In this document: positions 14,344-61,614 of the stretch, one piece after another
Numbering within the stretch: position 1 is the first letter of the stretch
Layout: each line of letters opens with the position of its first letter
Source of the DNA: Chrysoperla carnea
Lineage: Eukaryota; Arthropoda; Insecta; Neuroptera; Chrysopidae
NCBI RefSeq assembly: GCF_905475395.1
Contig: NC_058342.1
Coordinates: 1,374,501-1,438,500 of the forward strand
Direction of reading: 5' to 3'
DNA length: 64,000 bases
Program-made: the position numbers and the translations under genes
Notes under the pieces: model-generated
What the model saw: only the letters and a program-made list of their open reading frames with translations
What the model was told of the DNA's origin: nothing
The model's database searches: none

Positions 14344-14877
14344 ACTTTACAATTTATTGATTGCCGGTACACAATTAAATAATTTTGTGGACGATATTTC
14401 TTTGCGCGGCATATTTTCGCAAAACGACTTTCATATCTTAAATTTCTATTTACAATGCAATAATTTTATTTGCGTAAATTGTTATGTAATCCAATGTTAA
14501 ATTTTATTACCTCTAAATATTTTCATTTTGGTTAAATATTGTACGTATGAGAAAATATATTCACAATCGTTATGTAATTCACTGGATATAATTTTAAAAT
14601 AGAAGATTGCATGAGAATTCATTTATTTTTATATTAAATCAATAATTTTTGCATTTGTTTGATTCAAAATTCGAAATATTTTGTAAATAATAATTCAGAG
14701 GTTATTGTGTGTCATGTACAGTGAATCTGTGTTATCTAAATTCTTATGTTCAAATATCTTTGTTAACGTAAACCAAAGTTTAATATAAATCACTCGTTGT
14801 TTGTTGTTGAATTTATGTAAAGAATAGTATAAATATTATCGAAGATAATAAATGAGAACTCTAGGATATGTCGAAAT
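14344..14877. other. Non-coding AT-rich DNA
   Basis: Flanking sequence between the BEL element and the 3' end of the minus-strand Penelope element. No coding or RNA signal recognised. Confidence 0.5.
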
Positions 14878-14911
14878 AAATTTCGATTTTTCCCCATTTT
14901 CCTAGATCAGT

Positions 14912-14976
14912 TTTTTGTATTTTTAAAAGACGTATTTTCGACTACCAAGTAGTCATCATCAGTAAGAATTAGCTAG
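14912..14976 (-). ncRNA. Candidate hammerhead ribozyme in Penelope copy A
   Basis: Minus-strand reading shows CTGATGA (complement of 14956-14962), a 6-bp helix GACTAC/GTAGTC closed by a short loop, then GAAA (complement of 14936-14939). This is the conserved hammerhead core layout. The copy has ACGTC where copy B has ACGTA after the GAAA strand, which weakens helix III. Penelope-like elements are known to carry hammerhead motifs. Confidence 0.5.
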
Positions 14977-15264
14977 TGAATGTTGCTCTTTGCTAATTTG
15001 GTGGCGGACTGCACACTGTTACTTTCGTGTATTTACAATTTATACTGTTCACAGTATCTGTCAAATTGTAATATTAGTGGCGCTAGCCAATCAACTTTCA
15101 TCAGTTGACTAATGCTGGCCAATGAGCGTGATACTTGTGCGCAAGCCCATTCGAGTATTTTTTGACGTTTAAAATAATAAATTACAAATCAAACCTAAAT
15201 TAAAAAACTATAAATAAATCATAAAAATAAATAATCCTTTATTTTTATAACGTATTAACAAATT

Positions 15265-16530
15265 TTAGAAATTCAACCTTGATTTTGCAATTTTTATTAG
15301 ATCCGAATTTGGAATAGGTTCTTTGTCCAAGTTCATTGCTTCATTACCTATCATTTGAATGAAGATGCTTTCATAAGCGTCTAATTCGCAAGGATTGGGT
15401 ACTGATTTTAGGAGCTTAAGGTTTGATTTGTCAATTTTGTGGTCGTTTTCGATAACGTGAGCGGCTACACATGATTTTTCAATTCTTCCATATTTTAAAT
15501 GGCCCATATGTTCTTTGAATCTTGTGATAATTTGTCTTCTACTTTGACCTACATACTTCTTGGAACAATTTTGACATCCAATGCAATATATTCCCGATTG
15601 TTGTTCCATGTTGATTTTATCTTTGGGATTTCCAAGTAACTGTTTTAATTTTGTTCTACTAATGGGTGCTATTTTTAGGTTATGTTCTCCCAGTTCTTTT
15701 GTTAATTTGTTGACGTATGGTTGAAAATATGTAAGTTTGCACCATTTCTTTTTATCGATACTGTTTTGTTCTTGTTTCAAAGTTGTTGAATTGTTTCTTT
15801 GTATTCTTAATTTTACTTTTCGGATCATATTCTTGATTATTTGTCGATCAAATCCGTTGTATATTGCAACTTGGTGGATATGTTTTAATTCTTTGAAATA
15901 TTTTCTGGTGGATAATGGTATTTTTATTAATCGGTTCACTAGGAAGTTGCAAATGGATAGTTTGTGTTGTGGTGGGCTGTTTGAATCTGCTGTGATGTAT
16001 CTTTCAGTGTGTGTTGGTTTCCTGTATATGTCAAAATCTAGTTTCTTAGAATTTGTGTTTTTGGAAATTCTTATGTCAAGGAACGGAATCGAACCGTCCT
16101 TTTCGATTTCTGTTGTGAAATCAATTGAAGGGTACATGTTGTTCAGCTTATTAAGAAAATCTTGTGGATTTTCTTTTTCTGTGTCAAAAATATTGAAGAT
16201 GTCATCAACATACCTGTACCAGACAGCGGGAAAATAACTGAATGTTTGTTGGGCTTGTTCTTCGAGGTCTGACATGAAGATGTTGCTCAAGAACGGAGAT
16301 AACGGATTGCCCATAGACGTTCCAAATGTTTGTTTGTAGTATTTACCTTCGAAGGTAAACACATTTTGCCTCATGCATAGGCGTGTTAATTTTACCAATT
16401 CTGTTACTTCATCCATGTGTAAACCTTGATTTTTAAGCCATTTTTCGAACGCTTTTATTGCTTCTGGTATTGGAACACTGGGAAACAAAGCTTTGACATC
16501 AAATGACATTAGAACTGCACTTGGTGCCAA
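15265..16530 (-). CDS. Penelope reverse transcriptase palm and GIY-YIG endonuclease (copy A, partial)
   Basis: 421 codons of the C-terminal part of the polyprotein. Reverse transcriptase motifs: FDVKALFPSVP (motif A), GTSMGNPLSPFLSNIFM (motif B), YRYVDDIF (catalytic YVDD, motif C). The GIY-YIG-type nuclease follows near residue 325: GIYCIGCQNC...YVGQSRRQIITRFKEH. RT copies RNA and EN nicks target DNA in Penelope retrotransposition. The upstream part is cut off by a 23-bp deletion that shifts frame, so this copy is inactive. Copy B (37716-39404) is uninterrupted over the same region. Confidence 0.88.
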   Translation of the reverse strand: MAPSAVLMSFDVKALFPSVPIPEAIKAFEKWLKNQGLHMDEVTELVKLTRLCMRQNVFTFEGKYYKQTFGTSMGNPLSPFLSNIFMSDLEEQAQQTFSYFPAVWYRYVDDIFNIFDTEKENPQDFLNKLNNMYPSIDFTTEIEKDGSIPFLDIRISKNTNSKKLDFDIYRKPTHTERYITADSNSPPQHKLSICNFLVNRLIKIPLSTRKYFKELKHIHQVAIYNGFDRQIIKNMIRKVKLRIQRNNSTTLKQEQNSIDKKKWCKLTYFQPYVNKLTKELGEHNLKIAPISRTKLKQLLGNPKDKINMEQQSGIYCIGCQNCSKKYVGQSRRQIITRFKEHMGHLKYGRIEKSCVAAHVIENDHKIDKSNLKLLKSVPNPCELDAYESIFIQMIGNEAMNLDKEPIPNSDLIKIAKSRLNF

Positions 16531-16594
16531 TTCCGTATCCTTTATTTTGTTAATTAAATCAATACTATTTTTGACGGAAGACGAATCTGATTCG

Positions 16595-16879
16595 TTATTT
16601 AATGTTTGAAATTTTGTATGTTGGAGAATTTATACCTGAAACTATGTGTCGCATGGATCCATCTTGTTTGTGTATTTTTGGTAAACAATATAGACGAGGT
16701 GTTACAGGGTTCGAACACTGTAATTGAAATTTTAGTTGGTTGTTGATCAACTTTGGACATGCTTTTAAAGTGTCTTTTACATCGTTTACGAATGTGATTA
16801 ATGGATCCGATCTTTGAACTCTGTATGGACCTTCGTTGATCATTTTTTCTACTTTTGCTGAATAATCATTTTTGTCCAT
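16595..16879 (-). pseudogene. Penelope reverse transcriptase N-terminal fragment (copy A)
   Basis: Upstream part of the same RT (MDKNDYSAKVEKM, later PRLYCLPKIHKQDG, the conserved PKIHK segment preceding motif A). It is separated from the main frame by the 23-bp deletion near 16620. The coding sequence continues further upstream into the conserved LKADKGNSIVIMDK block. Confidence 0.8.
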
Positions 16880-16924
16880 TATGACGATTGAGTTGCCCTT
16901 GTCTGCCTTCAGGTAGTGTACATC

Positions 16925-17533
16925 CTTTTCTTTTAATGATTTAATTATTTTGCTATGGGTATCTTGACTGTTGTGTGGTTTGGAATTTTTTTATTATTTT
17001 TGTACAATTTTTTCTAATTTGGTTTTTGGTTGCTTCATCTAATGCTTTGATTCCTGTTTCAATATCCACACCTATATTTACGGACGGACATTCAATTTTC
17101 TGGATTGAAAAGTACAATCCTTTGTTAAATAGATTAATCTCATCATCTGAGAATTTGATATTGGTTGTGTTATGGGCGAGCTGTTGATCTTTGAATATTA
17201 ATTCTGGTTTTTTATTTTTGTTTTTTAGCATTTTTAGTTTTTTGTACAATTTTGTTGTTTTTGTTTTGAGTTTATGTTTTATAACTATTTGAATTTGTCT
17301 AAACCAATTGAGCCAGTTATCGAATTCACAATTATTTAAATTTTTTGTCATCATTAACTGGAACTTATAAGTTTCCGTAAATATAGCTGTGGATATTGAA
17401 ACAGGAATCAAAGCATTAGATGAAGCAACCAAAAACCAAATTAGAAAAAATTGTACAAAAATAATAAAAAAATTCCAAACCACACAACAGTCAAGATACC
17501 CAAAGCAAAATAATTAAATCATTAAAAGAAAAG
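16925..17533. repeat. Head-to-head Penelope junction (inverted repeat, 157-159-bp arms)
   Basis: Bases 16925-17083 and 17377-17533 are near-perfect inverted copies with a spacer of about 290 bp. The right arm is the start of Penelope copy B, which is broken at 17533 by the Maverick and resumes at 37716. Together with 14878-16924 versus 37722-39791, the two Penelope copies form one large inverted repeat, interrupted by the 20-kb Maverick. Confidence 0.8.
16953..17376 (-). pseudogene. Penelope N-terminal region (copy A)
   Basis: Lysine-rich N-terminal region of the Penelope polyprotein, read from about 17376 down to 16953. The frame differs from the RT frame by one base, the change falling in an A7 run; both copies share it. 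The open frame extends past 17376 only by reading antisense through the abutting copy B, so codons above that point are spurious. Confidence 0.55.
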
Positions 17534-19259: not shown

Positions 19260-20024
19260 ATGTCATATCAGAAGCAACAACACAAAGGAAGAGGTATTGT
19301 TAACACACTTATAAATAAATTACCGTTTGAGTTACACATACCAACTTATCGATATTGTGGACCTGGAAATAAGCTGACAGAACGATTAGCGCGTGGTGAT
19401 AAACCAAAAAACGCATTGGAGCAGGCTTGTATGGTACATGATATAGCATATTCAAAAAGTAAAGACTTAAAGGAGCGTCATCTAGCAGATAAACAATTAG
19501 CTGAAGCCGCTTGGAAACGTGTCAAAGCATCTGATTCAACAATTGGTGAAAAAGCATCCGCTTTATTCGTTACAGGCGCCATGAAGGCAAAAACTTCACT
19601 TGGTATGGGATTAAAAAAGAAAAAGACGAAAAAGACAAAGAAAACTATAAACTTTACAGCATCAGTGCGAAAGGCACGAAATGCATTGAAAAAATCACAA
19701 CCAACGGACTTAAAAGCAGCAGTAAAAATTGCAAAAGCAGCCGTGAGAGGTCAACGTATTAAAGCACCCACACGTGTAATACCAGTTCCAAAGTCTGGTG
19801 GTGTACTTCCATTAATTCCAATATTCGCAGAAGTCTCTGCTTTAGGTGATTTGGCTGGTGGAGCGTCGGGTATTGCTAAAGCCGTTACAAATTATAAAAG
19901 TGCTCGTGATCAACTTAATGAGAGTCAAAGACACAACAAAACAATGGAGGCTATAGCAATGGGTAAAGGCTTGTATTTAAGACCATACAACAAAGGCATG
20001 GGATTATATTTAGCAAAAAACTAA
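19260..20024 (+). CDS. Maverick PX minor capsid protein with PLA2-like domain, copy 1
   Basis: 254 residues from ATG 19260; the frame extends a few codons upstream but without ATG. The N-terminal third looks like the parvovirus VP1-type phospholipase A2 domain: calcium-loop YCGPG at residues 32-36 and catalytic pair HD at 60-61 in QACMVHDIAYS, then ADKQL. In parvoviruses this domain breaches the endosomal membrane. A Lys/Arg-rich DNA-binding-like stretch follows (KKKKTKKTKKT near 120), then a hydrophobic Gly/Ala-rich segment near 190-205 like adenovirus minor capsid proteins, and a GLYLRPYNKGMGLYLAKN tail. The stop at 20022 directly follows an A AAA AAC heptamer, and the protease lies in the -1 frame from there. 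Function is inferred from domains. Confidence 0.82.
   Translation: MSYQKQQHKGRGIVNTLINKLPFELHIPTYRYCGPGNKLTERLARGDKPKNALEQACMVHDIAYSKSKDLKERHLADKQLAEAAWKRVKASDSTIGEKASALFVTGAMKAKTSLGMGLKKKKTKKTKKTINFTASVRKARNALKKSQPTDLKAAVKIAKAAVRGQRIKAPTRVIPVPKSGGVLPLIPIFAEVSALGDLAGGASGIAKAVTNYKSARDQLNESQRHNKTMEAIAMGKGLYLRPYNKGMGLYLAKN
20015..20021 (+). promoter_or_regulatory. Candidate -1 ribosomal frameshift site between PX and protease (copy 1)
   Basis: The PX codons end GCA AAA AAC TAA, so A AAA AAC is in the correct zero-frame register for a -1 slip, the same heptamer used at retroviral gag-pro junctions. A -1 slip continues at 20021 into an open frame that is the protease. Downstream, CACGTAG (20037-20043) and CTACGTG (20063-20069) can pair as a 7-bp stem; its 15-nt spacing is longer than usual, so the exact stimulator is uncertain. 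Identical in Maverick 2 (54158-54164). Confidence 0.7.
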
Positions 20025-20383
20025 TTGAAACGCTACCACGTAGAGCACTTTACGATACGGAGCTACGTGTGTATGCTAAACAATTTAAAATTCCGTATTT
20101 TCGTGGTGTTTTTATGCGTGACACCCTACCCAATAGACCATATAAATATGATACAGGAATTATCAACCATGAAGTATCTAAAAATAGTGGCACACACTGG
20201 ACGGCATATAAAAAGTATAATCGAATTGTTATCTATTCTGATAGTTTTGGAAATTTGAGACCGCCAGCGGAAGTCCTTAAATATTTTAACGGATGTGACA
20301 TTCAATATAATTTTGATAGGCAACAACAGTTTTATACTCCGATTTGTGGACATCTATGTATACAATTTTTATTAAATAAATAA
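20021..20383 (+). CDS. Maverick adenain-like cysteine protease (PRO), copy 1
   Basis: 120 codons in the -1 frame after the PX slippery site. It resembles the adenovirus/polinton capsid-maturation protease (C5, Ulp1-like fold): YAKQFKIPYFRGVFMRD near residues 18-34, then catalytic His in GTHW (about 59), Asp in YSDSFG (about 74), an oxyanion Gln near 103 and the nucleophile Cys in CGHLC (about 113). No ATG precedes the conserved N-terminal block; the first in-frame ATG is 20114, inside it. Expression is therefore most simply by -1 frameshifting as a PX-PRO fusion, perhaps self-cleaved. A GTG at 20069 is in frame, but GTG is a poor eukaryotic start. No lesion. Confidence 0.82.
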   Translation, partial: LIETLPRRALYDTELRVYAKQFKIPYFRGVFMRDTLPNRPYKYDTGIINHEVSKNSGTHWTAYKKYNRIVIYSDSFGNLRPPAEVLKYFNGCDIQYNFDRQQQFYTPICGHLCIQFLLNK

Positions 20384-20420
20384 ACCAGCAAGTCTTGTAT
20401 TCACTTCATTCAAAATCAAG

Positions 20421-20855
20421 ATGTCATACATGCTTACTTTTACAGGGGATAGCTCTTTTTTAACAACAGACTATTCTCCACCAATTGAATTAGATAAAAA
20501 TGAAAATTATGAAATGGGTCTAGTAGATTTACAAGGGTACAATTCCATACCTAATATACACAGCCACAATAACATGTTTTATTACGATGATAAAGTCATA
20601 GAAATACCTCCAGGATCTTATGAAGTTGAAGATATTGAACGTTATTTAAAAGAAGCTGTAGGCGATGAGGTGACACTACAAATAAATGCTAATACAAATA
20701 CATTAAAATGTGAAATAAAGTGTACTGTGATAATAAACTGTGAACCATCAGATTCTGTTTGTCGCATGTTGGGATTTAATAAACGAAAACTAGATGCAAA
20801 TAAAAGACATGAAAGTGACAATACAGTTAATATTTTACCTGTAGAAACATTTTAT
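20421..20855 (+). pseudogene. Maverick penton (minor capsid) protein, N-terminal part, copy 1
   Basis: First 145 codons of the protein that is intact at 54564-55241. It matches the single-jelly-roll penton-type minor capsid protein of polintons (start MSYMLTFTG, then YSPPIELDKNENYEMGLVDLQGYNSIPNI). In place and size it should form capsid vertices. A 5.3-kb fold-back element splits the gene at 20856, and it resumes at 26162. Confidence 0.8.
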
Positions 20856-23800
20856 TAGTCTAGTAAAGAAGAGTCTGAAATCATGTTTTTCTCTGATACG
20901 GATGAAATTATATGGAAATTATCAGGAAAATGCATAAAAAACGATGGACAAAGTAAAAAAGTTCTCAAAGCCCGGGAAAGGGGTGAAAATTATGAAAAAC
21001 TATCCCGAAATACGAATTTTGGGTTATATTTTGAAAATATCAAAAAAAGTTTCAAATAAAAGTTGTAGAGCATTAAATTTTAGGCCTAACTCTTTCAGAC
21101 CAATTTTTCCTTAAAATGCACCCTTTCACCCCTAGAACGCTCAGAGTACTAAAAAAATGAAATTTCAGAAAAAAATATTATAGTAGTATAGTAACTCTAG
21201 GGCACTTCTAGACATGATAGAAACATGCGGTTTTTTGCATTCGACATAAAATCGCTTGAAATCTACAGGAAAAATCGAAAAACTTGTACTTTGTCATTGC
21301 AACCCCCTCCCACCCAAGCGGGAAAAATCACCCCAAAATAACAATTTTCTGTTCAATACATCCTAGAAAGATGACTTTTTCTCCCATCGACTCAAAATTA
21401 AGTCAAATTAACTGAATAAGTCGAAAAATATCATTGAAAACATCGCAGCCACCCGCAATAATGAAAAAACAACCCTCAAAATTGCCATTTTCAGTTTATA
21501 AATGCTAGAAACATGAGTTTTCCCCAATTGACCCAAAAAATGTCACATGCACTGCATTCTTCGAAAAATTTCCTTATCATCATCGTAAAATCGTCGTTAT
21601 CCCCCCGGAAAATCGTAAAAACAACCCCTAAAATTACGTTTTTCTTTTGTTTACATGCTCGAAAGATGGGATTTTCACTAATTACCCGAAATTAATTTCG
21701 CATTAATAGAAAACTTTGAAAAATTTCCTTACCCACATGGCAACACCCTCCCCCCCCCAATCATAAAACCTCCCGAAAATTTGAATTATAAGTTCCATTT
21801 ATGCTAGAAAGATAAGGTATTCACCAATAGACACGAAAAAAAGTAAAATTAACAGAATTCTTTTAAAATTTTCTCTATCCACATCGCAGACCCACGAAAA
21901 TTCGAAATAAACACCCCCTAAAATTTTTTTTTCCTTTTATACATGCTAGAAAGATATAATTTTCACTAATTGACCCGAAATAGTTTCGCATGAATAGAAT
22001 ACTTTGATAAATTTCATTACCCACATGGAAACAGCCGTCTCCCCCCCAAAATAATAAAACTCCAAAATTAGGATTTTAAGTTCCATACATGCTAGAAAGA
22101 AAGGATTTTCACCAATACACACAAAATAAAGTAAAATTATCAGAATTCTTTTAAAATTTTCTCTATCCACATCGCAACCCCCCGAAAATTCGAAATAAAC
22201 ACCCCCTAAAAATTTTTATTTTTTTTCGTTGTATATATGCTAGAAAGATCTAATTTCCACTAATTGACCCGAAATAATTACGCATGAATACTTTAGTAAA
22301 TTTAATAAATTTCTTTACCCACACCGCATCCTCCCGGAAAACCAGAAAACCCCCCGAAAATTTAGTGTTTTCAGTTCTATACGTGCTAGAAAGATAGGAT
22401 TTTCACCAATAGACACGAAATAGAGTGAAATTAACAGAATGCTTTCAAAATTTTCATTATCCACATCGAAACCCCCGGAAATTCGAAAAAAACCCTAAAA
22501 TTACGGGTTTTTTTGTTGTATACATGCTTGAAAGATATAATTTTCACTAATTGACCCGAAATAATTGTAATTCGCATGGATAGAATACTTTGATAAATTT
22601 CATTACCCACACAGCAATCTTCCGAAAAATCAGAAATTTCCCCCAAAATTAGTGTTTTAAGTTCTATACGTGCTAGAAAGACAGGATTTTCTCCAATAGA
22701 CCCGAAATAAAGTGAAAATTAAAGAATGCTTTAAAAATTTTCCTCAAACGCATCAAATCACCATAAAATTACGTTTTTTTGTTGTATACTTACATGCTGC
22801 GAAAATGGGATTTTCACTAATTGATCCAAAATAGTTTCGCATTAATAGATACTTTGGAAAATTTCATTACCCACATCGCAACCCCTCGAAAAATCAGACA
22901 CCCCCCGAGAATTAGGTTCTTAAGTTGTATACAATGCTAGAAAGATGGGATTTTCATCAATAGACCCAAAATAAAGTTAATTTAACAGAACACTTCCAAT
23001 AATTACATTAATTGCTAAGATATTTTATCTCGCTCACTTTTCTATGATAAACAAAAAAAATATGATTATACTCTCTTAGCTGCTACTTTTTACTAAGCTT
23101 TACAACTGAGCCTTTTTTGATGACTGTTGGTTTGAAGGATCTGAAGCAAAAAAAAATTAAATAAACCCATGATGGGGTTTCATGAAAGAGAATATAATTA
23201 TTAGTTAAGATTAACGGAGTTACGAGTTGAAAAGTGTGCTAGAGGGCCCAACCCATGCAGTTTTCCGGGATAATTGTACTTTTTAGAGCCATCCTGATAT
23301 TTAAACTGACAGGTCCAGAGGTTAAGATCAGAACTGAAAGGTATGTTTAGTGTTCAAAGTAAAGGCTTCATTTCTTTACTTTTCCAAAAGTTACCGTATG
23401 GATTTGAATTTCACATCTACAAAACAAAAAGTCCAAAAGGAAAGAGTTAAATACAATATCAAAGGTAATTTTAAACTTGAACGATATTTTATATAAACAT
23501 AATCAAATACAAATTTAACGCGTTAAGCGTCATTATGAAAATTTACAAAGTATAGAAATTTAACACATTAAGTGTTTACTGAATAACATAAATCAAGTAT
23601 TTAATAAATACACATATTCTAAAGTGTTTTACGAATAACGATTAATAAATTCTAAGTCATTTTAAACCTAGAAACCTTAAATAAACTTATATCAAAGGTT
23701 TAAACGGATGCATAATATATTGAAATTAAACATTTCAAACTATCTCCAAAAACCCAATAATTATAATAAATCGAAACATACCAGATAATTTAATAAAAAT

Positions 23801-26161
23801 ATCACTGTTAGCTCACATATTGTTTAAGTGTGCCACGTGCAAATAATTTAAAATTGTACATTGAATGTAGGATCCATTACTGTTTTTACATTGCGATCCT
23901 TGCTGTCCGAGAGCCCAAATCGAAGAGAGCTCCTAATCAATACTCAAACAAGTAGGTTAGTAAATTCCTCCGCGTAGCGATCACTGCGCATAAGAAAATA
24001 GATCCATTATTTTATGTAATATGTTGTGTTCGTAATTTATGTACTCTAACCGACATAAATTACGGAACAGATCTAACGGGCTGTTCAAGATTTGAAGGAT
24101 CTAATTCAAAAATATATTATTTCTATGCCATTTTTTTTTTTAAATAATTAAATAATTACATTTTGTTACGAGATATATATTAAATTAATTATTAAGTAGA
24201 GTCTTAAAGAAGAGACTCTTGAAAAAAAAGTATTTTACCACGTTTACCATACAGTTTTCACTGAGACGGAGCAAGCATGTCAAAAAGACATCTTACATAT
24301 TGACGGTACACACAGGTTTCTCACTTATTATAGTTCTGCGCATGGGTTAACCGTGAATATAAAAACTGCGCCATGCAAATTCCTTATATTTTGCAAGTGT
24401 GTTAAAGGGGAAATTTTGGGGGTGTTTTTCCCTTTTCGAGAGGTAAAGATGTATAATATGAAATTTTTGGATGTATTCTGTGAATTTAACATTAATTCAG
24501 ATCTATTGGGAAAATCCCATATTCACCAATTACATTGTATAGAACTCATAAAACCTAATTTTCGGGGGATTTTCCGATTTTCCGAGGGGTTGCGATGTGG
24601 CTAATGAAATTTTTTAAAGTATTCTATCAATACGAAACTATTTTTTATCAGTTAGTGAAAAATGTAAGTATACAACAAATAAACGTAATTTTATGGTGTG
24701 ATTTTTCGAATTTCCGGGGGGTTGTGATGTAGACAGTGAAAATTTTAAAAGAATTCTGTTAATATTACTTTATTTCGTGTGTATTGGTGAAAATCCTTTC
24801 TTTCTAGCATGTATGGAACTTAAAATCCTAATTTTGGAGTTTTATTATTTTGGGGGGGAGAGGGCTGTTTCCATGTGGGTAATGAAATTTATCAAAGTAT
24901 TCTATTCATGCGAAACTATTTCGGGTCAATTAGTGAAAATTATATCTTTCTAGCATGTATAAAAGGAAAAAAAAATTTTAGGGGGTGTTTATTTCGAATT
25001 TTCGTGGGTCTGCGATGTGGATAGAGAAAATTTTAAAAGAATTCTGTTAATTTTACTTTTTTTCGTGTCTATTGGTGAATACCTTATCTTTCTAGCATAA
25101 ATGGAACTTATAATTCAAATTTTCGGGAGGTTTTATGATTGGGGGGGAGGGTGTTGCCATGTGGGTTAGGAAATTTCCAAAGTTTTCTATTAATGCGAAA
25201 TTAATTCCGGGTAATTAGTGAAAATCCCATCTTTCGAGCATGTAAACAAAAGAAAAACGTAATTTTAGGGGTTGTTTTTGCGATTTTTCGGGGGGATAAC
25301 GACGATTTTACGATGATGATAAGGAAATTTTTCGAAGAATTCAGTGCATGTGACATTTTTTGGGTCAATTGGGGAAAAACTCATCTTTCTAGCATTTATA
25401 AACTGAAAATGGCAATTTTGAGGGTTGTTTTTTCATTATTGCGGGTGGCTGCGATGTTTTCAATGATATTTTTCGACGTATTCAGTTAATTTGACTTAAT
25501 TTTGAGTCGATGAGAGAAAAAGTCATCTTTCTAGGGTGTTTTGAACAGAAAATTGTTATTTTGGGGTGATTTTTCCCACTTGGGTGGGAGGGGGTTGCAA
25601 TGACAAAGTACAAGTTTTTCGATTTTTCCTGTAGATTTCAAGCGATTTTATGTCGAATGCAAAAAACCGCATGTTTCTATCATGTCTAGAAGTGCCCTAG
25701 AGCTACTATACTCTAGTCAGTCAGATTCACTTTTAAGAGAAGAGATGAAAAAAAAAATTTTTTTTCTCTACCATTGTTGTCTGTATTTTTTTTTAGAAAA
25801 AAAAAAAAAAAAAAACAATTAAAGAAGTCCAATTTTAATATTTTTTTTCTGAAATTTCATTTTTTTAGCTCTCTGAGCGTTCTAGGGGTGAAAGGGTGCA
25901 TTTTAAGGAAAAATTGGTCGGAAAGAGTTAGGCCTAAAATTTAATGCTCTACAACTTTTATTTGAAACTTTTTTGATATTTCCAAAATATAACCCAAAAT
26001 TCGTATTTCGGGATAGTTTTTCATAATTTTCACCCCTTTCCCGGGGGGTCGAGAACTTTTTTACTTTGTCCATCGTTTTCTATGCATTTTTCTGATAATT
26101 TTCATATCATTTCATCCGTATCAGAGAAAAACATGATTTCAGACTCTTCTTTACTGGACTA
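20856..26161. mobile_element. 5.3-kb fold-back element with tandem-repeat arms
   Basis: Inserted in the penton gene with TSD TTAT (20852-20855 and 26162-26165). The undisturbed gene in Maverick 2 shows the empty site. Termini read TAGTCTAGTAAAG on the left and the complement of TAGTCCAGTAAAG on the right. The two ends are inverted copies of each other over about 2.1 kb (left, to about 22995) and 1.8 kb (right, from about 24390). Inside the arms a unit of roughly 145 bp, centred on ATGCTAGAAAGAT, repeats about 12 times on the left and is mirrored on the right. The centre (about 23000-24390) is unique and non-coding. No transposase is seen, so it is non-autonomous. Confidence 0.82.
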
Positions 26162-26408
26162 TTATGTTCAATGTAATATTACAAATGGTTCGTATCATAA
26201 CAATGAAATCAGTCACACATTGTTTCATTTTTCACCAAATCTACCACCAGGCTATAAAATTGTGATACATCCTATGAATGTTATTTATTAACCAATCAAC
26301 TGTCAAACTATAAGCAACATTACGCTCATGTTAGTGGACCAAACTGGTAAATTAGTAAACTTTCGAGGTGAAAACTTTACAATTGGATTACACTTGAAAA
26401 AGATATAA
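26162..26408 (+). pseudogene. Maverick penton protein, C-terminal part, copy 1
   Basis: Resumes the penton frame (YVQCNITNGSYHNN) and ends GLHLKKI at TAA 26406-26408. A TTA to TAA change at about 26289-26291 adds a premature stop relative to Maverick 2. The natural stop overlaps the next ATG as TAATG. Confidence 0.8.
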
Positions 26409-37715: not shown

Positions 37716-39404
37716 GAAAAGGATGTACACTACCTGAAGGCAGACAAGGGCAACTCAATCGTCATAATGGACAAAAATGATTATTCAGCAAAAATAGAAA
37801 AAATGCTCAACGAAGGTCCATACAGAGTTCAAAGATCGGATCCATTAATCACAATCGTAAACGATGTAAAGGACACTTTAAAAGCATGTCCAAAGTTGAT
37901 CAACAACCAACTAAAATTTCAATTACAGTGTTCGAACCCTGTAACACCTCGTCTATATTGTTTACCAAAAATACACAAACAAGATGGATCCATGCGACAC
38001 ATAGTTTCAGGTATAAATTCTCCAACATACAAAATTGCAAAATGGCTAGTAAACAAATTCCAAACATTAAATAACGAATCAGATTCGTCTTCCGTCAAAA
38101 ATAGTATTGATTTAATTAACAAAATAAAGGATACGGAATTGGCACCAAGTGCAGTTCTAATGTCATTTGATGTCAAAGCTTTGTTTCCCAGTGTTCCAAT
38201 ACCAGAAGCAATAAAAGCGTTCGAAAAATGGCTTAAAAATCAAGGTTTACACATGGATGAAGTAACAGAATTGGTAAAATTAACACGCCTATGCATGAGG
38301 CAAAATGTGTTTACCTTCGAAGGTAAATACTACAAACAAACATTTGGAACGTCTATGGGCAATCCGTTATCTCCGTTCTTGAGCAACATCTTCATGTCAG
38401 ACCTCGAAGAACAAGCCCAACAAACATTCAGTTATTTTCCCGCTGTCTGGTACAGGTATGTTGATGACATCTTCAATATTTTTGACACAGAAAAAGAAAA
38501 TCCACAAGATTTTCTTAATAAGCTGAACAACATGTACCCTTCAATTGATTTCACAACAGAAATCGGAAAGGACGGTTCGATTCCGTTCCTTGACATAAGA
38601 ATTTCCAAAAACACAAATTCTAAGAAACTAGATTTTGACATATACAGGAAACCAACACACACTGAAAGATACATCACAGGAGATTCAAACAGCCCACCAC
38701 AACACAAACTAGCCATTTGCAACTTCCTAGTGAACCGATTAATAAAAATACCATTATCCACCAGAAACTATTTCAAAGAATTAAAACATATCCACCAAGT
38801 TGCAATATACAACGGATTTGATCCACAAATAATCAAGAATATGATCCGAAAAGTAAAATTAAGAATACAAAGAAACAATTCAACAACTTTGAAACAAGAA
38901 CAAAACAGTATCGATAAAAAGAAATGGTGCAAACTTACATATTTTCAACCATACGTCAACAAATTAACAAAAGAACTGGGAGAACATAACCTAAAAATAG
39001 CACCCATTAGTAGAACAAAATTAAAACAGTTACTTGGAAATCCCAAAGATAAAATCAACATGGAACAACAATCGGGAATATATTGCATTGGATGTCAAAA
39101 TTGTTCCAAGAAGTATGTAGGTCAAAGTAGAAGACAAATTATCACAAGATTCAAAGAACATATGGGCCATTTAAAATATGGAAGAATTGAAAAATCATGT
39201 GTAGCCGCTCACGTTATCGAAAACGACCACAAAATTGACAAATCAAACCTTAAGCTCCTAAAATCAGTACCCAATCCTTGCGAATTAGACGCTTATGAAA
39301 GCATCTTCATTCAAATGATGGGTAATGAAGCAATGAACTTGGACAAAGAACCTATTCCAAATTCGGATCTAATAAAAATTGCAAAATCAAGGTTGAATTT
39401 CTAA
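37716..39404 (+). CDS. Penelope reverse transcriptase and GIY-YIG endonuclease (copy B)
   Basis: About 562 codons uninterrupted: KADKGNSIVIMDK, PRLYCLPKIHKQDG, FDVKALFPSVP (motif A), GTSMGNPLSPF (motif B), RYVDDIF (catalytic YVDD), then GIYCIGCQNC...YVGQSRRQI (GIY-YIG endonuclease) and a C-terminal EAMNLDKEPIPNSD. The open frame extends leftward into the Maverick repeat to 37656, adding about 20 chance residues without an ATG; the first in-frame ATG is near 37769. RT and EN domains look undamaged, but the N-terminal part is separated by the 20-kb Maverick, so it is unlikely to be functional. Confidence 0.9.
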   Translation, partial: EKDVHYLKADKGNSIVIMDKNDYSAKIEKMLNEGPYRVQRSDPLITIVNDVKDTLKACPKLINNQLKFQLQCSNPVTPRLYCLPKIHKQDGSMRHIVSGINSPTYKIAKWLVNKFQTLNNESDSSSVKNSIDLINKIKDTELAPSAVLMSFDVKALFPSVPIPEAIKAFEKWLKNQGLHMDEVTELVKLTRLCMRQNVFTFEGKYYKQTFGTSMGNPLSPFLSNIFMSDLEEQAQQTFSYFPAVWYRYVDDIFNIFDTEKENPQDFLNKLNNMYPSIDFTTEIGKDGSIPFLDIRISKNTNSKKLDFDIYRKPTHTERYITGDSNSPPQHKLAICNFLVNRLIKIPLSTRNYFKELKHIHQVAIYNGFDPQIIKNMIRKVKLRIQRNNSTTLKQEQNSIDKKKWCKLTYFQPYVNKLTKELGEHNLKIAPISRTKLKQLLGNPKDKINMEQQSGIYCIGCQNCSKKYVGQSRRQIITRFKEHMGHLKYGRIEKSCVAAHVIENDHKIDKSNLKLLKSVPNPCELDAYESIFIQMMGNEAMNLDKEPIPNSDLIKIAKSRLNF

Positions 39405-50500: not shown

Positions 50501-50966
50501 TTAAGAAAAATAATAATGTTTTAACAAGAAACACTGATGTACGTGAATTTGTTATTTTTATTTATTTATTTTTTTTTTTTTTGTGTGAAGAATTATTCAA
50601 AAATGATTGTATATTTTGTATCCTGCCCACGTTTTGGCCACAAAAAACGCCGACTTCCACCTCTCCAAACCCGTTGAATACCATTTTTACTACGTTGACG
50701 ATTACCTACTTTTAAATTTACAACTTATATTACACATTTTGATACTACAAAGTCATACGTTCAATTGCGTCTAAAAGTTGAAGTTATTAAATTATTTATT
50801 AATTTCGTCAGTTTACAATGTTGAATTACAATACGTCCTAGAATCTATAGTTCCTAGCCTAACCTTTACCTATAATACATCATCGTTGCGAATTAAACTG
50901 TTGCTGTATTTGTATTTATATCAATTTTTAAAATTGTTGTTCAAGTCTATTGGATAGCTATCAGAG
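50501..50966. other. Non-coding DNA left of Maverick 2
   Basis: AT-rich. A short minus-strand basic stretch near 50630-50710 reads like a coding remnant (RVWRGGSRRFLWPKRG), not recognised. Confidence 0.35.
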
Positions 50967-50972
50967 TATAGA

Positions 50973-52620
50973 AGTAGAAGAGTCAGGTCACTCCTGGCAC
51001 AAAATAATGGTACACTTTTCCAAAAAGGGCAAACCTAGGTGAATGTTGGAAACCTCAGTTGAAGGCGAAGTTGGAGGGGATAGATGACGTCATTGACCAA
51101 TAGTAAATCAAGATGGCGTTGGGAGGTGTGGTGGGGCGTGGCTGACAGAGCGTTAGTGTGTTTCTTGGTGGAAGTGGGGCTTAAAGTGGTGGGCGTGGTT
51201 GACAGGAGTGTGTTTCTTGGAAGTGGGGGTTAAAGGGGGCGGGAATTGGACGTTAGATGAGATAATCGAGCCCACTCCTGGCGCAGATGGATGGTACACT
51301 TTTCAAAAAAGGGCAAACCTAGGTGAATGCGAAGTTGGAGGGGATAGATGACGTCATTGACCAATAGTAGCGCTGTAAAAATCAATATGGCGTTGGGAGG
51401 TGTGGTGGGGTGAGGAATGGCTAAACGGGGGGTTGGCTTTAACCAATAGTGGCGGAGAGTGAACAGGGGGCGGGACGTAAGGGCAAACCTAGGTGAATGT
51501 TGGAAACCTCGGCATTGGCCAATAGTAAATCAAGATGGAGTCGGGAGGTGTGGTGGAGGAGAATAATGGCTGCCTAAGCATTGATGACGTCATTGGCTTT
51601 GACCAATAGTGGTGCTTGACGGGGAGTGAACGGGGGGCGGGACGTTGACATTAGTCAGCAATTTTCAAGAATATGTTAATTTGACCTTGAAAAATATTGT
51701 AATTTGACACTTTAAATATACATGATAAAATTCAAGATACGTGACCGGATGTTAATTTTTTTTTTTTTATTGAGTCAGCGATGTAATATGACACTTGAAA
51801 TTTACATAATAAAAATACATGTTCAAACTTGTTTGAATGGACTTTGATCTTAAAATAATTTTACACGTGTCAGCAATTTTCAAGAATATGTTGAAATAGA
51901 TTTGACCTTGAAAAATATGATATCATCATCTTGTAACAAGTTCAAACTTGTTTGAAATAATTTTACATGTGTCAAAACACGTGACCGGATGCTAATATTT
52001 TTTTATGATTAAGCAATGTAATATGACACTTGAACGTGTTAGATAATAATTTGCAAATCTGAATTCCAAGAAAAGAATATTATGAGTCTGCAATTTTCAA
52101 GAATATGTTGAAATAGATATCATCTAACCTTGAAAAATATTGTAATTTGACACTTTAAATATACATGATAAAATTCAAGACACGTGACCGGATGTTAATT
52201 TTTTTTTATGATTAAGCGATGTAATATGACACTTGAAATTTACATAATAAAAATACATGTTCAAACTTGTTTGAATGGACTTTGATCTTAAAATAATTTT
52301 ACACGTGTCAGCTATTCTCAAGAATATGTTGAAATAGATTTGACCTTGAAAAATATGATATCATCATCCTGCTACAAGTTCAAACTTGTTTGAATAAAAA
52401 TACATGTTCAAACTTGTTTGAACATGTTTAAACTTGTTTGAATCGCATTAGATCTTAAAATAATTTTACACGTGTTATGAGATTAGAATAAAGGTTTTAT
52501 TTAATAAAAATCTTATAAATATTTTTTTTTTTTTTATTTATTAATGATTAAAATTTACATTAAAAAAAAATTTACAGAAAAAAATTATTATTATGAATCT
52601 GAAAAAACACATAAAGTATT
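50973..52620 (+). repeat. Left terminal repeat of Maverick 2, non-coding part
   Basis: The outer block (50973-51650) repeats the module with CACTCCTGGC, CCTAGGTGAATG, GATGACGTCATTG and CCAATAGT-type motifs two to three times. The inner part (51650-52490) repeats about three times a unit with TCAAGAATATGTTGAAATAGAT, CCTTGAAAAATAT, TTCAAACTTGTTTGAA, ACACGTGT and CACGTGACCGGATG. GATGACGTCATTG contains the CRE/ATF-type octamer TGACGTCA. Repeats are longer than in Maverick 1. Confidence 0.8.
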
Positions 52621-52627
52621 GGTGACA

Positions 52628-53350
52628 CTACAGTTCAATAAATTCATCAAATCCATTCCTATAACGACCCGCATTCATAGAGAAATTTTTCATTATTACA
52701 ACAAATCCATTTGGTGAACTCCAACAATGTCGACATAAATCATGAAATTTTTGCAAATTTATATCAGAGCCAACATGATCGTAGAATATGTGTTTTAGAT
52801 TCATTTCGTCCGTTTTGAATAACACCAAGCAATTAACATTGTCCCTTATGTTATGCTTTGGAACACGTGCGTAGCTCTGACATAGGTAGAAACAATCAAT
52901 TTTTCGATGACGACCCATACTAAAGTATTCTCTAATTCTCTGTTGTGAATGACAGCTCACATCATCAAAAATGAAAAGACTTTTTTCTCGAGCTTCATTC
53001 GGACTAAGAATTTCACTAGTATCACTAAATGGAAAATATCCAACCCCTTCCACTAATTTTAAAGTCTCTTCTAGTAATTGATATTTCGGTTGGTAAAGAG
53101 ATTTACTGTACACATAAATGTTTTCAAAGCGTAAACCGTTTTCATCATAAATTAAATTCAACATAACATTGGTTTTACCACAACCACTAGGGCCACATAT
53201 TATTGTTCGTAGTGAATCTGAAAATAGAGGACCATGATATGTTTGTGTGTCTGTATTTTCTGGTATTAAATTTTCAACACTCAGAGCGGGTTGTTGTTTA
53301 TGAAAACGCATTTTTAATGTAACTAAGACTAAAATTTCAATACAACCCAT
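52628..53350 (-). CDS. Maverick packaging ATPase, copy 2 left
   Basis: 240 residues, intact, with the same Walker A (GPSGCGKT, 53-60) and Walker B (LFIFDD, 125-130) as copy 1 and only a few substitutions. It is mirrored by the damaged copy at 59228-59958. It starts 52 bp from the PX ATG on the opposite strand. Confidence 0.88.
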   Translation of the reverse strand: MGCIEILVLVTLKMRFHKQQPALSVENLIPENTDTQTYHGPLFSDSLRTIICGPSGCGKTNVMLNLIYDENGLRFENIYVYSKSLYQPKYQLLEETLKLVEGVGYFPFSDTSEILSPNEAREKSLFIFDDVSCHSQQRIREYFSMGRHRKIDCFYLCQSYARVPKHNIRDNVNCLVLFKTDEMNLKHIFYDHVGSDINLQKFHDLCRHCWSSPNGFVVIMKNFSMNAGRYRNGFDEFIEL

Positions 53351-53402
53351 TTTATAAACATTTAAATATATGTGAACTTAATTGTTTAAATCATTTAGTA
53401 GT

Positions 53403-54167
53403 ATGTCACATCAGAAGCAACAACACAAAGGAAGAGGTATTGTTAACACACTTATAAATAAATTACCGTTTGAGTTACACATACCAACTTATCAATATTG
53501 TGGACCTGGATCTAAGCTGGCAGAACGATTAGCGCGTGGTGATAAACCAAAAAACGCATTGGATCAGGCTTGTATGGTACATGATATGGCATATTCAAAA
53601 AGTAAAGACTTAAAGGAGCGTCATCTAGCAGATAAACAATTAGCTGAAGCCGCTTGGAAACGTGCCAAAGCATCTGATTCAACAATTGGTGAAAAAGCAT
53701 CCGCTTTATTCGTTACAGGCGCCATGAAGGCAAAAACTTCACTTGGTATGGGATTAAAAAAGAAAAAGATGAAAAAGACAAAGAAAACTATAAACTTTAC
53801 AGCATCAGTGCGAAAGGCACGAAATGCATTGAAAAAATCACATCCAACGGACTTAAAAGCAGCAGTAAAAATAGCAAAAGCAGCCGTGCGAGGTCAACGT
53901 ATTAAAGCGCCCACACGTGTAATACCAGTTCCAAAGTCTGGAGGTATACTTCCATTAATTCCAATATTCGCAGGACTCTCTGCTTTAGGTGCTTTGGCTG
54001 GTGGAGCGTCGGGTATTGCTAAAGCCGTTACAAATTATAAAAGTGCTCGTGATCAACTTAATGAGAGTCAAAGACACAACAAAACAATGGAAGCTATAGC
54101 AATGGGTAAAGGCTTGTATTTAAGACCGTACAACAAAGGCATGGGGTTATATTTAGCAAAAAACTAA
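53403..54167 (+). CDS. Maverick PX minor capsid protein with PLA2-like domain, copy 2
   Basis: 254 residues from ATG 53403, intact. It keeps YCGPG and the catalytic HD pair (QACMVHDMAYS), the Lys-rich stretch and the Gly/Ala-rich hydrophobic segment (AGLSALGALAGG), which is closer to a canonical membrane-active helix than in copy 1 (AEVSALGDLAGG). Ends in the A AAA AAC TAA frameshift signal. Confidence 0.82.
   Translation: MSHQKQQHKGRGIVNTLINKLPFELHIPTYQYCGPGSKLAERLARGDKPKNALDQACMVHDMAYSKSKDLKERHLADKQLAEAAWKRAKASDSTIGEKASALFVTGAMKAKTSLGMGLKKKKMKKTKKTINFTASVRKARNALKKSHPTDLKAAVKIAKAAVRGQRIKAPTRVIPVPKSGGILPLIPIFAGLSALGALAGGASGIAKAVTNYKSARDQLNESQRHNKTMEAIAMGKGLYLRPYNKGMGLYLAKN
54158..54164 (+). 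promoter_or_regulatory. Candidate -1 ribosomal frameshift site (copy 2)
   Basis: Same A AAA AAC heptamer in the same register, the same 7-bp CACGTAG/CTACGTG stem 15 nt downstream, and the protease frame open from 54164. Conservation in two copies that differ elsewhere argues the junction is not a recent lesion. Confidence 0.7.
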
Positions 54168-54526
54168 TTGAAACGCTACCACGTAGAGCACTTTACGATA
54201 CGGAGCTACGTGCGTATGCTAAACAATTTAAAATTCCGTATTTTCGTGGTGTTTTTATGCGTGACACCCTACCCAAAAGACCATATAAATATGAAACAGG
54301 AATTATCAACCATGATGTATCCAAAAATAGTGGCACACACTGGACGGCATATAAAAAGTACAATCGAAGTGTCATCTATTATGATAGTTTTGGAAATTTG
54401 AGACCGCCAGTGGAAATCATTAAATATTTTAACGGATGTGACATTCAATATAATTTTGATAGGCAACAACAGTTTAATACTCCGATTTGTGGACATCTAT
54501 GTATACAATTTTTATTAAATAAATAA
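54164..54526 (+). CDS. Maverick adenain-like protease (PRO), copy 2
   Basis: 120 codons, intact, with the same His (GTHW), Asp (DSFG) and Cys (CGHLC) as copy 1. Substitutions include Ile-Tyr-Tyr for Ile-Tyr-Ser just before the Asp. Again no ATG ahead of the conserved N-terminal block. It would mature PX and capsid proteins. Confidence 0.82.
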   Translation, partial: LIETLPRRALYDTELRAYAKQFKIPYFRGVFMRDTLPKRPYKYETGIINHDVSKNSGTHWTAYKKYNRSVIYYDSFGNLRPPVEIIKYFNGCDIQYNFDRQQQFNTPICGHLCIQFLLNK

Positions 54527-56338: not shown

Positions 56339-56492
56339 ATTACAATACATTTCATACAGTAACGCTGTTTGATTATTTGTGTAATTTAGATACAAATTCA
56401 CATATGGGTAGGCTTCACCATTTAAATAGACTTTCAAATTTGTTATGTTACAATGGTCAAACTGACTGGAATCTTTTAAAATGTTGCGGTTT
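56283..56492. repeat. Fold-back junction in the major capsid gene
   Basis: 56283-56335 is followed by its own inverted copy at 56440-56492. The loop (56336-56439) is the antisense of the next part of the capsid gene as it exists in Maverick 1. This is the signature of a strand-switch (template switching or hairpin repair) or of a chimeric assembly join. Confidence 0.75.
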
Positions 56493-57168
56493 AACTTTGG
56501 ATCCGCGTTTAGCTAAGACCTTTTCCACTAAATAAATGTTTGGATCGTGAACTTTTTGTAATTCTTCGGCATAGAAACCACCCTTTATATCTTCGTTGTT
56601 GTAGTCCTTCAGTAAATATGTTCTTGGGTTTGTAAGTTTCACCTCGCGAATGGTGAATATTTCTGGTGTCCATGATGGATGAAAACCACGAGCAAACATC
56701 GTTCTAAATTTACTTATCCTTACATGATCACCAACTGTAAATTTTTGTTTTGGACCCACCATCTTAATATGATTGTATGAATCTTTTAAAATCCGTTTTT
56801 CGTTTCGTGTATTGACTTGTGATGGCTTCATCCTGATTGTCCGATGGTATGAATTATTGTACTGTTTAATCAATTCCGGTAATACTTTTATCCATTTATA
56901 ATTACCATACAAACTGAAATGTTTGTACATCATCGATTTCAGTGTGCGTATAAATCTCTCTACAATACACGCCTTTTTAGTTGAATATACAGAATAATGG
57001 TTTATGTTGTGCTCTTTCATCAATCTCTTAAATTTTTCATTATAAAATTCCGTACCATTATCAGTTTGAAGGTTTTTCGGTGTACGATCTTTTATAATCT
57101 GTTCCATGGCATTAGTGACATCCACCGCACTCTTGGACTTTAGTGGCATAGCCCAGCTATATTTAGAG
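56487..57168 (-). pseudogene. Inverted integrase fragment (copy 2)
   Basis: An inverted copy of most of the integrase (the same residues as about 70-290 of 57682-58605), lacking both ends. It includes TDNGTEF and IVERFIRTL but no start. With the forward integrase it forms a second palindrome inside the element. Confidence 0.8.
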
Positions 57169-57689
57169 AAAGTCTTGGGCAGTGTTTGTCATTAGATGAT
57201 GAAGAATCATACTTTGACGCAAAAAATAAAAAAATAAGTAATGTAGCAAGTCCAGAATTTTCAACTGATGCTGTGGATTTATACACCCTTATCAATCATG
57301 TTAGTGATAAAATCAATAACACTACTGAAATATTTAACGAGAGTCTGAAAAAATTAAATGGTTATTTTCAAATATTAATACGTAATACACAACCAACAAA
57401 ATTTTATAAAGATCCAACTACTAATTTTGCATGGTATATATTGGAAAATAATACAAGAGTTTTTGTATTTAGATTCCCAATCTCTGTGATGATACAACAT
57501 TTAGATATTAAACCAACATACTGTGAGGTCTTCAAAAACGATACTATTATAGATAAAAATAAACTTAATACATTAAAATCAAACGATTATTTAACGTTTG
57601 GTATTCCTAAGAGTTTCATGACTACAAACTCTGATTCCATGTTACTATATGTTGACATTGGTATAAAATATAAATTAATAGATGGATAA
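57169..57689 (+). pseudogene. Maverick ORF upstream of integrase, N-truncated (copy 2)
   Basis: Corresponds to 30342-30860 of Maverick 1; the N-terminal 40 or so codons are missing because the sequence joins the inverted integrase at about 57169. The remainder (LSLDDEESYFDAKNKK to IGIKYKLIDG) is open. Overlaps integrase by 8 bases (ATGGATAA), as in copy 1. Confidence 0.6.
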
Positions 57690-58605
57690 AAGACGAATTG
57701 TTGTGAATGAGCTACATAAACCAGCTCGATGTAATTATCCAAGAAGGCGTGTAATCATTAAGGGACTCAATGATTTATTTCAAGCTGATTTGGTAGAAAT
57801 GATCCCGTATGCAAGACAAAATACCAACTTTAAATATATTTTGGTGGTCATCGATTGCTTCTCTAAATATAGCTGGGCTATGCCACTAAAGTCCAAGAGT
57901 GCGGTGGATGTCACTAATGCCATGGAACAGATTATAAAAGATCGTACACCGAAAAACCTTCAAACTGATAATGGTACGGAATTTTATAATGAAAAATTTA
58001 AGAGATTGATGAAAGAGCACAACATAAACCATTATTCTGTATATTCAACTAAAAAGGCGTGTATTGTAGAGAGATTTATACGCACACTGAAATCGATGAT
58101 GTACAAACATTTCAGTTTGTATGGTAATTATAAATGGATAAAAGTATTACCGGAATTGATTAAACAGTACAATAATTCATACCATCGGACAATCAGGATG
58201 AAGCCATCACAAGTCAATACACGAAACGAAAAACGGATTTTAAAAGATTCATACAATCATATTAAGATGGTGGGTCCAAAACAAAAATTTACAGTTGGTG
58301 ATCATGTAAGGATAAGTAAATTTAGAACGATGTTTGCTCGTGGTTTTCATCCATCATGGACACCAGAAATATTCACCATTCGCGAGGTGAAACTTACAAA
58401 CCCAAGAACATATTTACTGAAGGACTACAACAACGAAGATATAAAGGGTGGTTTCTATGCCGAAGAATTACAAAAAGTTCACGATCCAAACATTTATTTA
58501 GTGGAAAAGGTCTTAGCTAAACGCGGATCCAAAGTTAAAGTCCGGTGGTTAGGGTTCGACTCTTTACACGATTCATATATTGATAAAAAAAGTCTCCTTT
58601 TATAG
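57682..58605 (+). CDS. Maverick retroviral-type integrase with C-terminal chromodomain-like region
   Basis: 307 residues, intact. Catalytic acids by count: D36 (FQADLVEM), D96 (TDNGTEF), E130 (IVERFIRTL), the rve-type triad that joins element ends to target DNA. The C-terminus (about 262-300, LVEKVLAKRGSKVKVRWLGFD) resembles a chromodomain, which could steer insertion by reading histone marks. The start ATG lies inside the end of the preceding ORF. Confidence 0.88.
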   Translation: MDKRRIVVNELHKPARCNYPRRRVIIKGLNDLFQADLVEMIPYARQNTNFKYILVVIDCFSKYSWAMPLKSKSAVDVTNAMEQIIKDRTPKNLQTDNGTEFYNEKFKRLMKEHNINHYSVYSTKKACIVERFIRTLKSMMYKHFSLYGNYKWIKVLPELIKQYNNSYHRTIRMKPSQVNTRNEKRILKDSYNHIKMVGPKQKFTVGDHVRISKFRTMFARGFHPSWTPEIFTIREVKLTNPRTYLLKDYNNEDIKGGFYAEELQKVHDPNIYLVEKVLAKRGSKVKVRWLGFDSLHDSYIDKKSLLL

Positions 58606-59175
58606 TGGAACGTTTTTATGAACATACTTGTAACTTTCAGACTTTGGAACTGGTATTACACGTGTGGGCGCTTTAATACGTTGACCTCGCACGGCTGCTT
58701 TTGCTATTTTTACTGCTGCTTTTAAGTCCGTTGGTTGTGATTTTTTCAATGCATTTCGTGCCTTTCGCACTGATGCTGTAAAGTTTATAGTTTTCTTTGT
58801 CTTTTTCATCTTTTTCTTTTTTAATCCCATACCAAGTGAAGTTTTTGCCTTCATGGCGCCTGTAACGAATAAAGCGGATGCTTTTTCACCAATTGTTGAA
58901 TCAGATGCTTTGGCACGTTTCCAAGCGGCTTCAGCTAATTGTTTATCTGCTAGATGACGCTCCTTTAAGTCTTTACTTTTTGAATATGCTATATCATGTA
59001 CCATACAAGCCTGATCCAATGCGTTTTTTGGTTTATCACCACGCGCTAATCGTTCTGCCAGCTTAGTTCCAGGTCCACAATATTGATAAGTTGGTATGTG
59101 TAACTCAAACGGTAATTTATTTATAAGTGTGTTAACAATACCTCTTCCTTTGTGTTGTTGCTTCTGATGTGACAT
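58606..59175 (-). pseudogene. Inverted, C-truncated PX (copy 2 right)
   Basis: The first 180 or so residues of PX, identical in kind to the left copy (PLA2-like YCGPG and HD intact), cut at 58638 where the right repeat ends against the integrase 3' region. The final few codons of its open frame are antisense of integrase downstream sequence. Lacks the hydrophobic segment and frameshift site. Confidence 0.8.
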
Positions 59176-59227
59176 ACTACTAAATGATTTAAACAATTAA
59201 GTTCACATATATTTAAATGTTTATAAA

Positions 59228-59958
59228 ATGGGTTGTATTGAAATTTTAGTCTTAGTTACATTAAAAATGCGTTTTCATAAACAACAACCCGCTCTGAGTG
59301 TTGAAAATTTAATACCAGAAAATACAGACACACAAACATATCATGGTCCTCTATTTTCAGATTCACTACGAACAATAATATGTGGCCCTAGTGGTTGTGG
59401 TAAAACCAATGTTATGTTGAATTTAATTTATGATGAAAACGGTTTACGCTTTGAAAACATTTATGTGTACAGTAAATCTCTTTACCAACCGAAATATCAA
59501 TTACTAGAAGAGACTTTAAAATTAGTGGAAGGGGTTGGATATTTTCCATTTAGTGATACTAGTGAAATTCTTAGTCCGAATGAAGCTCGAGAAAAAAGTC
59601 TTTTCATTTTTGATGATGTGAGCTGTCATTCACAACAGAGAATTAGAGAATACTTTAGTATGGGTCGTCATCGAAAAATTGATTGTTTCTACCTATGTCA
59701 GAGCTACGCACGTGTTCCAAAGCATAACATAAGGGACAATGGTGTTATTGTAATTGCTTGGTGTTATTCAAAACGGACGAAATGAATCTAAAACACATAT
59801 TCTACGATCATGTTGGCTCTGATATGAATTTTCAAAAATTTCATGATTTATGTCGACATTGTTGGAGTTCACCAAATGGATTTGTTGTAATAATGAAAAA
59901 TTTCTCTATGAATGCGGGTCGTTATAGGAATGGATTTGATGAATTTATTGAACTGTAG
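59228..59958 (+). pseudogene. Maverick packaging ATPase, copy 2 right (frameshifted)
   Basis: Inverted twin of 52628-53350. An 8-nt insertion near 59742-59750 breaks the frame after residue 170 or so; the rest continues at 59758-59958. Walker A and B are intact upstream. Confidence 0.85.
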
Positions 59959-59959
59959 T

Positions 59960-61608: not shown

Positions 61609-61614
61609 TATAGA

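Follow-up and report, generated by a model that had tools for sequence, protein, structure and literature searches.

How the protease of an insect Maverick is translated is the question raised by a locus of Chrysoperla carnea, where the protease occupies an open frame without an early ATG, placed at -1 relative to the end of the preceding gene. The window, i.e. the whole stretch of 64,000 nucleotides which was analysed, is carried by a 38.6-Mb contig of the 559-Mb genome. Protein matches and Pfam identified, in its Maverick copies, an ATPase, a phospholipase A2 (PLA2)-domain protein, a protease, a double jelly-roll capsid protein and an integrase, and the insect-type Maverick/Polinton gene set (A32-like ATPase, adenain-like protease, double jelly-roll capsid protein and rve integrase) is clustered there. 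A preliminary description of this DNA had proposed that the upstream protein and the protease are joined by -1 ribosomal frameshifting. This proposal is supported by the nucleotide conservation of the site, by a distant clade that carries another canonical heptamer and by in-frame fusions that occur naturally; from such sequence comparisons, a probability of about 85% is assigned to the junction being a conserved programmed -1 ribosomal frameshift site.

The junction and the proteins on either side of it

In copy 1, the open reading frame (ORF) of the PLA2-domain protein ends in the codons GCA AAA AAC TAA, so that a heptamer of the X XXY YYZ type stands in register with the upstream ORF and is followed directly by the stop (Table 1). 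A slip of one base backwards leads, free of stops, into a conserved domain which has no start of its own in the window family. The register, the stop-free frame and the lack of an early ATG had all been pointed out in the preliminary description and were found as claimed. The recurrence of heptamer and stop in copy 2 was also confirmed; since copies 1 and 2 are about 97% identical, however, they count as one and provide no independent support. Moreover, in-register heptamers are fairly frequent in the ORFs of the window (82 of 7291 codon sites are slippery in register, nine of these being A AAA AAC), and a single site alone is therefore only suggestive; on the comparative sequence evidence, the junction heptamer is beyond chance. 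A second in-register A AAA AAC is found at 19406-19412 (codons 50-51), inside the PLA2 domain, in both window copies.

Table 1. Features of the protease junction and of its copies, in window positions
Feature	Position	Strand	Remarks
PLA2-domain ORF, copy 1	19260..20024	+	ATG start; 254 aa; frame 0
Slippery heptamer A AAA AAC, copy 1	20015..20021	+	in register
Frame-0 stop TAA	20022..20024	+	directly 3' of the heptamer
-1 open frame, copy 1	19967..20383	+	138 codons + stop; 18-codon overlap, then adenain-like protease
First ATG of the protease frame	20114..20116	+	31 codons 3' of the heptamer; inside the predicted fold
Candidate H-type pseudoknot, stem 1	20037-20043 with 20063-20069	+	7 bp
Candidate pseudoknot, stem 2	20054-20062 with 20091-20099	+	window family only
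PLA2-domain ORF, copy 2	53403..54167	+	
Heptamer, copy 2	54158..54164	+	
-1 open frame (protease), copy 2	54110..54526	+	
PLA2-domain ORF, copy 3	58638..59175	-	truncated, without junction

The upstream protein had been labelled as the minor capsid protein PX, a name which stands for the penton in the polinton literature, as far as the available text of PMC4028283 goes. This label proved to be wrong, since the sole Pfam match of the ORF is the phospholipase A2-like domain PF08398 (E 6.4e-14), and its identity as a single jelly-roll penton was rejected. The 'CAP' of Spodoptera (Sf) Mavericks likewise has a PLA2 domain, according to the accessible part of PMC5803895. GxG pairs before the junction were considered as processing sites, and no such claim is made.

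Regarding the protease, the block LPxRAL...YAKxLKIPxFRGVF, which is N-terminal to the ATG at 20114, is conserved in 35 aligned proteases. The open frame was modelled with a mean pLDDT of 88.7 and is predicted confidently beyond about residue 21; the model places a helix at residues 30-39 and a strand at residues 45-50, whose last residue is the Met of that ATG. A protein started here would lack this helix and the greater part of the first strand; since both the conserved block and the confidently modelled elements precede it, the ATG is unsuitable as a start. The best PDB match of the model is adenain, the adenovirus protease (4pie, E 9.4e-06), and across the 35 sequences H77 and C127 are invariant while D92 is kept in at least 90%. 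Judging from their position, these would be the catalytic residues, and the His, Asp and Cys together with the predicted fold characterise an adenain-like cysteine protease.

The Maverick copies are set in a rearranged region. In copy 1 the ORF that follows the protease is broken by an insertion of about 5.3 kb (20853-26164) with inverted ends at 20856-21180 and 25836-26161 (95% identity); copy 2 is uninterrupted at this point. An inverted repeat of about 3 kb (50965-53940 and 58638-61616, 99.3% identity) and an inverted pair at 56490-57170 and 57859-58539 (100% identity) point to a recent palindromic rearrangement of Maverick pieces. An ORF with reverse transcriptase and GIY-YIG domains, presumably of a Penelope-like element, is present at 37767-39404, an inverted copy (98%) of the region at 14876-16930. 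The 27-mer of the junction has 41 exact copies in the genome, 12 of which are within the last 2 Mb (138.2-139.94 Mb) of the 139.98-Mb contig C1.

Conservation of the site among relatives

The preliminary description had suggested comparing related copies for conservation of the heptamer and of the frame relation. A protein search of the same genome gave 150 protease matches, which were thus not found via the heptamer, and DNA was taken for 34 of these loci, hand-chosen to span identities and lengths and not a random sample. The identities are 42-93%, and together with both window copies the loci form nine clusters by block identity. In 22 of the 34, the heptamer A AAA AAC stands in register at a distance of 0-2 codons from the stop; the protease follows in the -1 frame, its block 11-14 nt further on (L060-L065, L067-L069, L071-L074 and L085-L093, with L092 broken upstream). 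A distant clade at 42-47% identity (L076-L081, L083 and L084; 8/34) carries an in-register G GGT TTT, which lies within the -1 overlap and is followed by the stop 10 or 11 codons later. On mammalian ribosomes, both A AAA AAC and G GGU UUU rank among the heptamers most prone to shifting, as reported in the available text of PMC5009743. Among the other loci, two canonical heptamers, A AAT TTT and T TTT TTT, are in register in L082; in L066 the upstream protein and the protease are fused in frame; L070 has lost the upstream gene; and L075, a relative of L082, has neither a canonical heptamer nor an ATG. In both L075 and L082 the upstream ORF ends in TTT TTT TAA, the protease frame is at -1 and there is no ATG. 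In L085, additional sequence separates the GLYL motif from the heptamer, with the register and the -1 protease still kept. The suggested comparison was favourable: nucleotide-level conservation was found across diverged relatives, the exceptions being L075 and the poly-K group of upstream proteins.

The tails of the upstream protein were compared in the best 120 of 1251 matches. In this set, KN occurs within the last 13 residues of 112 homologues, with the stop at most two codons after it in 109 of the 112. The preceding residue is S (39), P (36), Q (12), K (12), T (7), A (4) or L (2), none of the 112 being a residue whose codons are unable to end in A, compared with 27% in a flanking control. 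A stop comes after KN in 38 cases, and otherwise F (29), Y (25), C (11), S (6), L (2) or V (1), so that a T-initial codon or a stop is possible in 111 of the 112. The eight of these best 120 without KN are P0126, P0138, P0143 (tail missing), P0160, P0182, P0232, P0235 and P0239. Four of these eight served as seeds for a third search, of which the best 120 of 3888 matches added 94 new homologues, 44 of them with KN.

A tree of 215 sequences, including that of the window, was built with the tail left out. Its tails comprise 130 with KN and a T-type next residue, 26 with KN and another next residue, one with KN after a residue unable to end in A, 50 poly-K tails, two fusions and six others. The position preceding KN underwent 65 parsimony changes along this tree, yet only 1/157 residues there are unable to end in A, compared with 63/157 and 28/157 at the next two positions towards the N-terminus (-2 and -3). 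As read from these sequences, the conserved pattern is one of bases (NNA AAA AAY) and not of amino acids. Regarding the named hosts, KN tails occur in Anoplophora, Molorchus and Pyrocoelia, which we take to be beetles, and in Stomoxys, presumably a fly; poly-K tails occur in Leptopilina, presumably a wasp.

The frame relation was further assessed with N-extended proteases, which were codon-compatible with upstream tails at -1 in 5/118 and at +1 in 1/118. Equal-sized contigs carry the pairs P0008/P0178 and P0062/P0236, compatible in -1, and P0073/P0239, compatible in +1. A profile test for protease signal in 212 upstream tails gave 14 signals at -1, short and weak, and eight at +1; the four strongest (P0297, P0245, P0247 and P0239) are +1 and all come from poly-K tails, which speaks against one -1 rule common to all relatives. 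The sequences support the -1 rule well in the KN group; it is less certain in the poly-K group, where slippage on a long A run may take other forms. Finally, in-frame fusions of the PLA2-domain protein and the protease were found in P0301 and P0326 (388 aa each), in addition to the genome copy L066, and these natural fusions indicate that a joined product is at least possible.

Downstream structure and competing accounts

The 7-bp stem noted in the preliminary description is present downstream of the heptamer (Table 1), but the folding energy is not notable: RNAfold gave z = -1.1 for the 119 nt after the window heptamer. The stem could form part of a candidate H-type pseudoknot, also found in copy 2, with no base between its stems and a stacking sum of -26.9 kcal/mol. 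The spacer between the heptamer and stem 1 is 15 nt, longer than usual. This pseudoknot was first noticed by eye and scored afterwards; an equal or better score was obtained for 19 of 20000 dinucleotide-shuffled sequences and, elsewhere in the window, for 9 of 6372 stretches. The pseudoknot search was empty in all 13 tested A AAA AAC loci of other families. In six usable A-type relatives, the 75 nt beyond the heptamer contained no stable fold (z +0.37 to +1.35; L071 was left out of the fold comparison), two G GGT TTT loci had no notable nearby fold (z -0.22 and +0.24), and an Rfam search of 19900-20400 gave no match. Within the window family (43 copies), 10 of the 86 sites in segment 20028-20113 are variable, and 23 of 840 other segments are equally or less variable, which is only suggestive of constraint at the sequence level. 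Apart from copies 2 and 3 of the window, these copies had been selected with a 27-mer that spans the heptamer, and are hence uninformative on the conservation of the heptamer itself.

Three other accounts of the junction were weighed against frameshifting. By termination-reinitiation, the ribosome would restart in the protease frame near the stop of the PLA2-domain ORF. In fact, an ATG is found near the protease start in ten of the 34 loci, L074 included, placed 2-3 codons before the conserved block and just behind or overlapping the stop, and five of ten JGI-sourced protease ORFs start with M near the block; the lack of a start seen in the window family thus does not extend to these ten relatives. 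Nevertheless, all ten keep the heptamer. An ATG-started protease without the heptamer had been named in the preliminary description as evidence against frameshifting, and only the first half of that combination was encountered. Moreover, no ATG precedes the block in the window family, in L060, L062 and L071 or in the eight G GGT TTT loci, and reinitiation leaves unexplained why the base before AAA AAC stays A-capable through 65 residue changes. As the general explanation it is very improbable, although in the ten ATG loci it may add to frameshifting.

Slippage of the RNA polymerase, which would add or drop an A in the run so that part of the mRNA reads into the protease, fits a site consisting of an A run, and also the poly-K homologues, whose runs are probably longer: P0301 reads through a poly-K-type A run in frame, and the +1 relation of some poly-K tails would suit runs of variable length. 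In the best 120 of the 1251 homologues, however, S or P precedes KN in 75 of 112, which limits the run to at most six A. A run of six A is short for polymerase slippage, and the G GGT TTT of the distant clade contains no A run whatsoever; odds a little lower than those of reinitiation are given to this account. The least probable of the three is that the protease has a spliced or separate mRNA, or that the copies are silent and decayed, with KN a feature of the upstream protein alone. Some copies do carry stops, but 38 of the first 42 protease matches have no internal stop, and KN varies in its distance from the conserved GLYL motif while being tied to the stop and to an A-capable preceding codon.

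Proposed mechanism and relation to known systems

According to the frameshift reading, most ribosomes would end at the stop of the PLA2-domain protein, while some, on reaching A AAA AAC with a stop at or close to the following codon, would slip back by a single base and read on into the protease to give a fusion of both proteins. We infer both the slip of the ribosome at this site and its frequency. In the window family, frameshifting would be the only evident route to a whole protease; some other families may also restart at the ATG beside the stop, and the poly-K group may do something else. By analogy with retroviral Gag-Pro, the fusion could carry the protease into the particle.

In the retrovirus MMTV, the stop is close behind the heptamer. 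The gag-pro junction of the MMTV type resembles the present one in its heptamer class and in the fusion of a capsid-side protein to a protease (PMC5009743, available text). Nevertheless, the Maverick is a double-stranded DNA element, its upstream partner is a PLA2-domain protein, the protease fold is unrelated and, among the loci tested, the Maverick families have no common stimulator. The adintoviruses are related elements for which -1 frameshifts have been suggested: slippery sites were indicated by KnotInFrame towards the end of certain penton ORFs, with a similar relation for potential hexon-adenain fusions; this proposal concerns other genes and, in the accessible text of the 2024 preprint (PMC11071296), includes neither a conservation analysis nor a PLA2-domain-protease junction. 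The Sf Mavericks share the PLA2-domain CAP and the adenain-like PRO of insect Mavericks, but the available part of PMC5803895 treats CAP and PRO as separate ORFs and does not discuss frameshifting from one into the other. Vertebrate Mavericks likewise have an adenoviral-like protease in the capsid gene module; there, as far as the available text of PMC8097293 goes, the protease gene follows the major capsid gene and frameshifts appear only as decay. In the literature covered by the search, to which most subscription papers do not belong, frameshifting at a PLA2-domain-protease junction was not found described. Searches of viral contigs (with the protease and profiles A2 and A1), prokaryote genome contigs (profile A2) and phages and plasmids (upstream protein) gave no relatives.

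A broader reading, which we hold to be slightly better than an even bet, is that a big branch of insect Mavericks, occurring in flies and beetles, has an old, retrovirus-like frameshift between a capsid protein and a protease, in which A AAA AAC was exchanged for G GGU UUU while the arrangement was kept, and that the maturation protease is brought into the particle as a fusion with a membrane-acting PLA2 protein. If true, this would represent deeply conserved programmed frameshifting in a double-stranded DNA virus or transposon of eukaryotes. It would account for the production of Maverick proteases and would correct gene models with wrong starts, and the heptamer together with the frame would provide a short sequence test for intact Maverick proteases. 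Furthermore, it suggests convergence with retroviruses in the dosing and packaging of a protease.
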